Positions 8,063-64,000 of a stretch of 64,000 nucleotides of DNA are shown one piece after another. Numbering within the stretch: the stretch's first letter is position 1; every line of letters begins with the position of its first letter. Origin of the DNA: Marinitoga aeolica. GTDB lineage: Bacteria; Thermotogota; Thermotogae; Petrotogales; Petrotogaceae. The position numbers were made by a program, and so were the translations under genes. Under the pieces are notes generated by a model. It was not told where the DNA came from, searched no databases, and worked only from the letters and a program-made list of their open reading frames with translations. The DNA lies in contig NZ_CP069362.1 in NCBI RefSeq assembly GCF_029910535.1, positions 1,798,001 through 1,862,000 on the forward strand, written 5' to 3'.

Positions 8063-8094
8063 AAACACCTGCGCTCAAGCGCAGGTGTTTTAGT
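8063..8094 (+). terminator. Rho-independent terminator of the MMPL operon
   Basis: A perfect 12-bp stem, AAACACCTGCGC (8063-8074) with GCGCAGGTGTTT (8079-8090), has a TCAA loop and starts directly after the stop codon. Its T tail is cut short by TAGTTTGCAAAC, the edge of repeat element A. Confidence 0.9.
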
Positions 8095-8420
8095 TTGCAA
8101 ACAAACTCAAAATTAAATACAAAGTATTTTCAAAATTGGAATCAAAATAAAACTCATTCAAACGCTTGATTGCTAATCTGAAAAAATTAATCATTCTCGG
8201 TTTCCGTTCAGACTCGCATCCATGCTCGGCTTCACTCAAAATCACGTCCATGTGATTTTGGAAACCTCCATTCATAATTTTTTCAGGCAATCTTCGAGTT
8301 TTCATTCGTTTTATTTTTGAATTCCAATATATTCAATTCTATTCATGTTTTTTTCGGGAATTTTCAAGGATTTTTTCATATTATTTTTTTCATATTTTAT
8401 TTTGTCGACAGTCTGAACTC
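8091..8420 (-). repeat. Structured intergenic repeat element, copy A
   Basis: Read on the minus strand, this gap aligns with copy B at 37071-37315. Both contain GACAAAATAAAATAT, TGAAAATTCCCGAAAAAA, a 9-bp hairpin with a 6-base ATGGAY loop, AGYGAARCCGARC, a second small hairpin and CGAGAATGA. In copy A the first hairpin is at 8237-8260, the second at 8216-8225, and the closing stem is GGTTTC (8199-8204) with GAAACC (8261-8266). Copy A has about 60 extra bases between the A-rich lead and the closing stem. The 71-codon open frame across it is not conserved in copy B and is not called as a gene. Confidence 0.7.
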
Positions 8421-36687: not shown

Positions 36688-36996
36688 TTATTTATTGATA
36701 TTGAAAACTTCTTGGAGCTTTAATAATGCGAACAATTTTTTAATTTTTTCATTCATATTTATTAGAACTAACTCTTTTCCCATTTCTTTTAATTTTCTTT
36801 GAAGGGAAATAAGCTGTCCTATTCCAGTACTATCAATTGTTATTAATTCTCTAAAATCCATAATTATTGTATTTATATCCTTTTTGGTTATTAGAGGCTT
36901 AACCTCATTTTCAAAATCATGAATATCATACAATGTAAATTCTCCAATAATTTTAACTGTATAAATCTTATTTCTTTGTACTTTTATTATTTTCAT
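36688..36996 (-). CDS. STAS-domain anti-sigma factor antagonist (SpoIIAA/RsbV-like)
   Basis: 102 residues, a single STAS domain. IMDFRELITIDSTGIGQLI carries the conserved DSTGIG, whose Ser is the phosphorylation site in SpoIIAA and RsbV. NTIIMDF and ELVLINMNEKIKKLFALLKL complete the fold. The usual partner kinase (SpoIIAB/RsbW) and sigma factor are not adjacent. Instead it heads an ABC exporter operon, which suggests a partner-switch input to transport or envelope stress. This link is inferred from position only. Confidence 0.85.
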   Translation of the reverse strand: MKIIKVQRNKIYTVKIIGEFTLYDIHDFENEVKPLITKKDINTIIMDFRELITIDSTGIGQLISLQRKLKEMGKELVLINMNEKIKKLFALLKLQEVFNINK

Positions 36997-37049
36997 AAAT
37001 CACCTCATTAATTAAAAATAATTTCAATATATATTATATCATATCACAA

Positions 37050-37070
37050 AAACCTCCTTTTCAGGAGGTT
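37050..37070 (-). terminator. Terminator hairpin, left copy of 21-bp direct repeat
   Basis: The hairpin AACCTCC-TTTTCA-GGAGGTT is preceded on the plus strand by a run of five A, so on the minus strand it ends in TTTTT and can stop transcription from tatD, or from a promoter inside the repeat element, before the STAS gene. An identical 21-bp copy lies at 37316-37336. Confidence 0.7.
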
Positions 37071-37315
37071 ATATTACAAACCGTTGACAAAATAAAATAT
37101 AAAAAAATAATATGAGTGAATCTTTGAAAATTCCCGAAAAAATGTGAATGAAGCCTGGCAATTTTGCATGGATGCAAAATTGAGCGAAACCGAACATGAA
37201 TGTGAGTTTTCGTGACAGGCGAGAATGAACATTTTTGAGGAATAAGAATTTTCACTGGATGAACAAATATTATTTTGATTATTTTATTTTGTACTTTGTC
37301 TACAAACTGAAATAT
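37071..37315 (+). repeat. Structured intergenic repeat element, copy B
   Basis: 245 bp between two identical 21-bp terminator hairpins. The ends are imperfect inverted repeats: ATATTACAAACCGTTGACAA at the left and, inward from the right, ATATTTCAGTTTGTAGACAA; both continue into AATAAAATA. Inside are the closing stem GCCTG (37153-37157) with CAGGC (37216-37220), hairpin 1 CAATTTTGC-ATGGAT-GCAAAATTG (37159-37182) and hairpin 2 ACATGAATGT (37194-37203). These match copy A with compensatory changes. The 64-codon open frame across it is not conserved. It may be a MITE-like element, a structured RNA, or both. Confidence 0.7.
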
Positions 37316-37336
37316 AAACCTCCTTTTCAGGAGGTT
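37316..37336 (+). terminator. Terminator hairpin, right copy of 21-bp direct repeat
   Basis: The same hairpin as 37050-37070, here followed on the plus strand by TTTTTTG. The minus-strand tail after it is short, so it is a poor terminator for tatD. The two copies divide the two T-runs of what looks like one original bidirectional terminator. Confidence 0.75.
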
Positions 37337-37344
37337 TTTTGTTG

Positions 37345-38103
37345 TTAAATATCAAATATTTTTCTTGAATTTTCTACTAAAATTTGTGAAGTATCTTCTA
37401 TATTCATATTTTTAATTTCAGCTATTTTTTGTATTACGTATTTCACATATGTAGGATTATTCTTCTTTCCCCTAAAAGGAACTGGTGTTAAAAAAGGTGA
37501 ATCTGTTTCTGGTAATATATATTCAATAGGTGTATTTTTTACAACTTCTACTAATGTATTATTATTTTTAAAGGTTATAGGACCATCAATACCAATATAA
37601 AATCCAAGATCTAAGAACTTTTTGGCCGTTTTCCAATCAGCAGAAAAGCAATGTACAACACCCAATTTATCTGGTAATCCTTCATTAATCAATATGTTAA
37701 ATGCATCATCGTAAGCTTCTCTTATATGTAAAATCAAAGGTAAGTTTAATTCTTTAGCTATTTGAATTTGATTTATAAATGAAGAAAACTGATCTTTTTT
37801 AGATGTGTATTCCCTGTAATAATCTAAACCTATTTCCCCAATAGCAATAACCTTCTCATTTTGTGCAAGAATCTTAATTGTATCAAAATCTTTATTTGAT
37901 AAATTAGATGAATCATTTGGATGGATGCCTACTGAGCAATAGATATTTTCATAAGAATTAGCTAACTCTACAGTTTTAAAAGAGTTTTCTACGTTTATTC
38001 CAACTTCTATTACAAATTCCATATTTTCTTTTTCAAATGAATTAATTATTTCATTCTTATTGTCTATTAAATTTAAATGGCAATGTGTGTCCACTAATTT
38101 CAA
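37345..38103 (-). CDS. tatD: TatD-family deoxyribonuclease
   Basis: 252 residues. A metal-dependent TIM barrel: VDTHCHLN (metal His pair near residues 5-7), AIGEIGLDYYREYTSKKDQ (Glu ligand), LPLILHIREAYDDAF, VVHCFSADWKTAK, and the final ETDSPFLTPVPFRGKKNNPTYV with the catalytic Asp. TatD proteins have 3'-5' DNase activity. The start lies three bases after the cupin stop, and lgt is further upstream on the same strand. Confidence 0.95.
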   Translation of the reverse strand: MKLVDTHCHLNLIDNKNEIINSFEKENMEFVIEVGINVENSFKTVELANSYENIYCSVGIHPNDSSNLSNKDFDTIKILAQNEKVIAIGEIGLDYYREYTSKKDQFSSFINQIQIAKELNLPLILHIREAYDDAFNILINEGLPDKLGVVHCFSADWKTAKKFLDLGFYIGIDGPITFKNNNTLVEVVKNTPIEYILPETDSPFLTPVPFRGKKNNPTYVKYVIQKIAEIKNMNIEDTSQILVENSRKIFDI

Positions 38104-63643: not shown

Positions 63644-64000
63644 CATTAAAAATAAACAAAAAGATTTTTAATAAAAGAATTTAAATTTTGCGAAGCAAAT
63701 GCTATGCATTAAAAATAAACAAAAAGATTTTTAATAAAAGAATTTAAATTTTGCGAAGCAAATGCTATGCATTAAAAATAAACAAAAAGATTTTTAATAA
63801 AAGAATTTAAATTTTGCGAAGCAAATGCTATGCATTAAAAATAAACAAAAAGATTTTTAATAAAAGAATTTAAATTTTGCGAAGCAAATGCTATGCATTA
63901 AAAATAAACAAAAAGATTTTTAATAAAAGAATTTAAATTTTGCGAAGCAAATGCTATGCATTAAAAATAAACAAAAAGATTTTTAATAAAAGAATTTAAA
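63644..64000. repeat. Tandem array of a perfect 63-bp repeat (at least 5.6 copies)
   Basis: The unit starts CATTAAAAATAAACAAAAAG and ends TTTGCGAAGCAAATGCTATG; copies repeat every 63 bases (for example at 63644, 63707, 63770) with no change that I can see, and the array runs past the window end. Each unit holds two overlapping hairpins: TTTGC-GAA-GCAAA and AATGC-TAT-GCATT. All forward frames and the minus-strand frames I checked contain stops, so it is not coding. The first unit is preceded by AATGC-AGC-GCATT, a variant of the second hairpin. No spacers separate the units. Confidence 0.95.

Follow-up and report, generated by a model that had tools for sequence, protein, structure and literature searches.

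A hairpin-flanked MITE in Marinitoga aeolica, its probable mobilisation by an IS1182-family transposase, and its TwoAYGGAY-type RNA cargo

Terminator targeting by elements of the IS1182 family is already known. IS1272 and TnSha1 of Staphylococcus insert at hairpins, often terminators, which are targeted by structure rather than sequence (PMC4923244; PMC5678879), and hairpin terminators are also the sites of ISCbo5 of Clostridium botulinum group III, which inserts at gene ends and for which a surrounding hairpin has been described (PMC3098183). The direct repeats listed for the family in ISfinder range from 2 to 60 bp (quoted in PMC7335449). The present locus, a small element between two copies of a terminator hairpin in M. 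aeolica, resembles these systems in its target. It lies in a stretch of 64,000 nucleotides, hereafter the window, to which all coordinates refer unless otherwise stated.

The element, its insertion site and its family

The minus strand carries both genes adjoining the insert, which we take, from sequence inspection and the initial annotation, to encode a TatD-like protein and a STAS-domain protein. The features of the site are as follows.

36688-36996, minus strand: gene for a presumed STAS-domain protein, left neighbour
37050-37070, no strand assigned: left copy of the target hairpin, which retains the minus-strand T-run and is the terminator of the minus-strand gene on its right
37071-37076, no strand assigned: ATATTA, six bases from left hairpin to left tip, mirrored by 37310-37315
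37077-37309, plus strand: MITE of 233 bp, delimited by aligning its tips with those of the genome's 35 other paired copies
37077-37091, plus strand: left tip, CAAACCGTTGACAAA (family consensus CAGACTGTTGACAAA)
37084-37111, plus strand: promoter-like TTGACA-16-AATAAT beginning in the left tip, by consensus match only
37295-37309, minus strand: right tip, CAGTTTGTAGACAAA as read on that strand
37310-37315, no strand assigned: AAATAT, six bases from right tip to right hairpin
37316-37336, no strand assigned: right copy of the target hairpin, which retains the plus-strand T-run
37345-38103, minus strand: presumed TatD-like gene, upstream, whose terminator is the target

The initial annotation had described perfect 21-bp direct repeats of a terminator hairpin, and the hairpin AAACCTCCTTTTCAGGAGGTT is indeed identical at both positions, with a start-to-start spacing of 266. 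Its assignment of a minus-strand T-run to the left copy and a plus-strand T-run to the right one agrees with a terminator scan of positions 36950-37450, in which exactly two terminator-like sites were found (shuffled mean 0.1), the left hairpin scoring on the minus strand and the right on the plus. The imperfect inverted ends that it named (GTTGACAAA and GTAGACAAA) are present and recur elsewhere in the genome (2.44 Mb), to which the 245-bp insert, used as a query, gave dozens of matches. The insertion itself thus stands, and its length of 245 bp gives way to the 233 bp obtained by comparison of sibling tips. Similarly, the proposal of a non-autonomous element with a long target duplication holds, except that the duplication has no fixed length: the whole hairpin is duplicated, and it differs from site to site.

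In keeping with a MITE, the window copy is 233 bp long, has inverted tips and contains no ORF of at least 80 aa; it is 91-93% identical to nine siblings. Tip mapping placed 36 paired copies with tips CAGACTGTTGACAAA and CAGTTTGTAGACAAA in the genome, in addition to orphan ends, a search that covered the stretches around tips and transposases and so undercounts copies without recognisable tips. A direct repeat of 17-31 bp is retained in 19 of the 36, formed by a different hairpin in each, and from copy to copy the hairpins that form the flanking repeats are unrelated in sequence (examples are AAATCCCCTCTAATTTTAGAGGGGATTT, AAAGGAGTTCAGAAGAACTCCTTT, ACCAGCTGTAAATACAGCTGGT and AAGCGCCCAAAGGCGCTT). 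Under a strict script rule, 16 of these 19 repeats are flush hairpins, compared with chance rates at the same lengths of 0.35% in random genome segments and 2.3% in nearby flank segments. By mechanical ORF calls, each of the 36 copies has a neighbouring gene that points towards it and usually stops 5-50 bp short of the tip; divergent genes surround none of them. Some copies have unlike hairpins on their two sides.

A second family copy, 325 bp long and in minus orientation, lies at 8091-8415 of the window; a strong hairpin adjoins one of its sides, and the hairpin at the other is unlike it and decayed. Elsewhere in the window are a purine riboswitch (407-508, 90.1 bits) and tandem 63-bp repeats, 98% alike, which run from 63572 up to the window edge at 64000.

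Probable helper transposase and duplication of the target hairpin

No IS1182 transposase was found in the M. aeolica genome, so the helper would be lost or external. In the congener G006, a decayed element flanked by a duplicated hairpin carries a PF05598 transposase remnant between tips CAGACTGTTAACAAA and CAGATTAAATACAAA. With the N-terminus of this remnant as query, nine near-identical elements of 1,577 bp were recovered from two other Thermotogae genomes (G074 and G076; same class, another family), and their tips, CAGACTGTTGACAAAG and CAGATTGTTGACAAA, are those of the MITE. The encoded protein is an IS1182 transposase, scoring 478.8 bits against NF033551 (curated cutoff 270) and also matching PF05598, PF13751 and PF01609; in a plasmid collection its nearest named relative is the transposase of ISEfa7, an IS1182-family element of Enterococcus faecium, at about 54% identity across 90% of the query length. 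Six of the nine copies lie between exact hairpin duplications measuring 20-28 bp; in one the hairpins at the two ends are unlike, and the other two show non-hairpin repeats of 7 and 10 bp. In these elements (L216-L224) the transposase frame meets no stop codon before the right tip and enters the target DNA, and a TATAAT stands 18 bases after the TTGACA of the left tip.

The pattern extends to a survey of IS1182 elements in eighty relatives, mainly Firmicutes, from a bacterial genome collection, with Firmicutes IS boundaries anchored on the tip sequence. A direct repeat of at least 15 bp was present in 57 Firmicutes copies, and in 57 of 57 it was a flush hairpin of 19-34 bp; among them are copies in Neobacillus drentensis (13/13), Romboutsia timonensis (5/6) and Bacillus sp. 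OV166 (12/12 of those with both tips). The remaining Firmicutes copies have mostly unlike hairpins at their two ends, or ends that were not resolved (as in Thermoanaerobacter), and some have short non-hairpin repeats. Such short repeats, together with those at two of the nine Thermotogae IS copies, indicate that hairpins are preferred and not required.

The shared tips and shared target pattern make it highly probable that an IS1182-family DDE transposase, acting in trans, mobilises the MITE, the window copy included, and duplicates the target hairpin. The transposase would recognise the hairpin by shape and not by sequence, probably as a cruciform extruded in supercoiled DNA; the 3' ends of the element would probably then be joined, strand by strand, at the hairpin's 5' feet, a step that corresponds to the hypothetical pathway b of PMC5678879, and filling of the resulting long gaps would copy the whole hairpin to both sides. 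Gap filling of this kind would cause repeat length to track hairpin length, and because length tracks in this way while sequence is free, we infer that the enzyme senses the hairpin itself. An insertion may be tolerated because the site lies downstream of a gene and a working terminator is left on each outer side.

A different helper could be sought in the genome's own transposases. Elements of the IS1634 family are known for long, variable repeats, and M. aeolica has two intact transposase genes with PF01609 matches which we presume to belong to that family; around the copies in the relative G003, moreover, long repeats occur, one of which contains a hairpin. That these enzymes mobilise the MITE family is nevertheless very improbable, since their tips are CCTGAGTTTGACAGC-like and not CAGACTGTTGACAAA, the repeats of the G003 copies are mostly non-hairpin, and the exact MITE tips are found on IS1182 elements; on tip sequence they were ruled out as helper. 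The G003 copy in question is L186, whose long direct repeat encloses a terminator hairpin. No shared tips were seen for an IS110-family gene (identified by inspection) near a G006 copy, which was likewise set aside as helper.

The window site departs from a simple duplication in that each tip is separated from the 21-bp repeat by 6 bp. These bases, ATATTA and AAATAT, mirror each other just inside the hairpins and lie outside the element proper. The outer bases at the hairpins match empty sites in other relatives, and in G003 an ATATAAACC hairpin occurs with no element beside it; originally, the duplicated target may have been longer than 21 bp, its outer halves having changed later. Alternatively, similar terminators could have given rise to the paired hairpins through recombination or slippage, without transposition. 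The unexplained inner flanks lend this some support, as do the copies with unlike hairpins on each side, which show that rearrangements occur, but dozens of sites combine exact tips with unrelated hairpins and require a tip-specific enzyme, and we give an origin without transposition only a slight chance.

Transposition into a pre-existing hairpin by an IS1182-type enzyme also accords with the sites in relatives. The initial annotation had looked to closely related strains for an empty site between tatD and the STAS gene, and in four relatives (G001, G003, G004 and G006) a single hairpin occupies that position, with no insert. The flanking tatD is conserved in all four, the adjoining STAS gene is clear in G003 and G004, and matches to both genes bracket the empty site in those two. 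At a second MITE site (position 676837 of the M. aeolica genome) G001, G003 and G006 retain the right-hand gene and have beside it one hairpin without an insert. These orthologous single hairpins refute the notion that the hairpins are the element's own terminator at each end, for which the chance is smaller still: a hairpin does stand at both ends of every well-kept copy, but its sequence and length differ at every site.

The TwoAYGGAY RNA cargo

Between the tips of the window copy lies a fold of the TwoAYGGAY type, with the following parts.

37111-37257, plus strand: TwoAYGGAY-type RNA fold (RF01731), 33.4 bits against a gathering score of 43, partly decayed
37168-37173, plus strand: first hairpin loop, ATGGAT (CANGGANG, CsrA-like)
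37196-37201, plus strand: second loop, ATGAAT, the sole one among 34 cores without GGA

The genome contains 25 matches to RF01731, of which 11 (siblings) exceed the gathering score of 43, and four congeners contain 3 to 23 each; none was found in two other congeners or in 14 more distant relatives. Sixteen of the 25 are inside paired-tip elements, and most of the others belong to a second repeat type, which has ends of another kind; in some copies a different core occupies the space between the same tips. Examples of the second repeat type (L012, L015-L017, L019 and L020) share the TwoAYGGAY interior, some with TTGTCCAAAAAG outermost. A further element (e1356155, genome positions 1356155-1356505) is seemingly nested: inside its IS1182-type tips comes sequence of the second repeat type, followed by a TwoAYGGAY core.

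Across the 34 cores both loops conform to CANGGANG, with free middle positions and a GGA that varies in the second loop of the window copy alone. One stem contains tandem G-A mismatch pairs, as reported for the TwoAYGGAY family (PMC4333381). Among 18 distinct cores, pairing is 99.6% and six pairs have double changes, although the covariation in helix 1 involves two states only and may represent a single event.

The loops CANGGANG resemble CsrA sites, binding of TwoAYGGAY RNA by CsrA has been predicted (PMC4333381), and csrA is encoded in the M. aeolica genome. The elements might be imagined as self-spreading genes for a putative CsrA-titrating RNA, a reading that we regard as unlikely. The left tip would then supply a promoter hexamer, the interior a two-site RNA and the duplicated hairpin a terminator; each insertion would build a complete small-RNA gene and raise the dose of a sponge for a global regulator. 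Promoter-like matches in the left tip are no commoner than in shuffled sequence, and a bias of the RNA towards the sense of the upstream gene was not found, 17 of 24 copies flanked by genes in the same direction being antisense (p = 0.064).

Comparison with known systems

What is added here to terminator targeting by IS1182 elements is a quantified rule of whole-hairpin duplication, novel with respect to the open-licence literature, together with a MITE derivative and its cargo. Whole-hairpin duplication, which the published model for IS1272 contained as one theoretical branch, becomes a rule in 57 of 57 long-repeat Firmicutes IS copies, and also describes most long-repeat IS and MITE copies of Thermotogae. 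A shape-reading transposase could serve to insert DNA safely behind genes, and an RNA family of unknown function is now placed inside mobile elements.

With IS1272 the hairpin is lost by deletion or replacement and no target duplication results, whereas the MITE and its IS relatives duplicate the hairpin whole; hairpin replacement of the IS1272 type does not describe our copies, in which a hairpin stands on both sides of MITE and IS alike. As deletion and duplication of hairpins thus occur within one transposase family, the geometry of strand joining becomes testable. ISCbo5 differs in being an autonomous IS, with no MITE and no RNA cargo, and the main text of PMC3098183 contains no rule for repeat length. 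The RNA, finally, shares with the TwoAYGGAY family (RF01731) the two AYGGAY hairpin loops, the tandem G-A pairs and, in siblings of the window copy, scores over the gathering score; the family has been reported from gut metagenomes, gammaproteobacteria and Clostridiales (PMC2864571), whereas here it appears as a multi-copy passenger of Thermotogae mobile elements.
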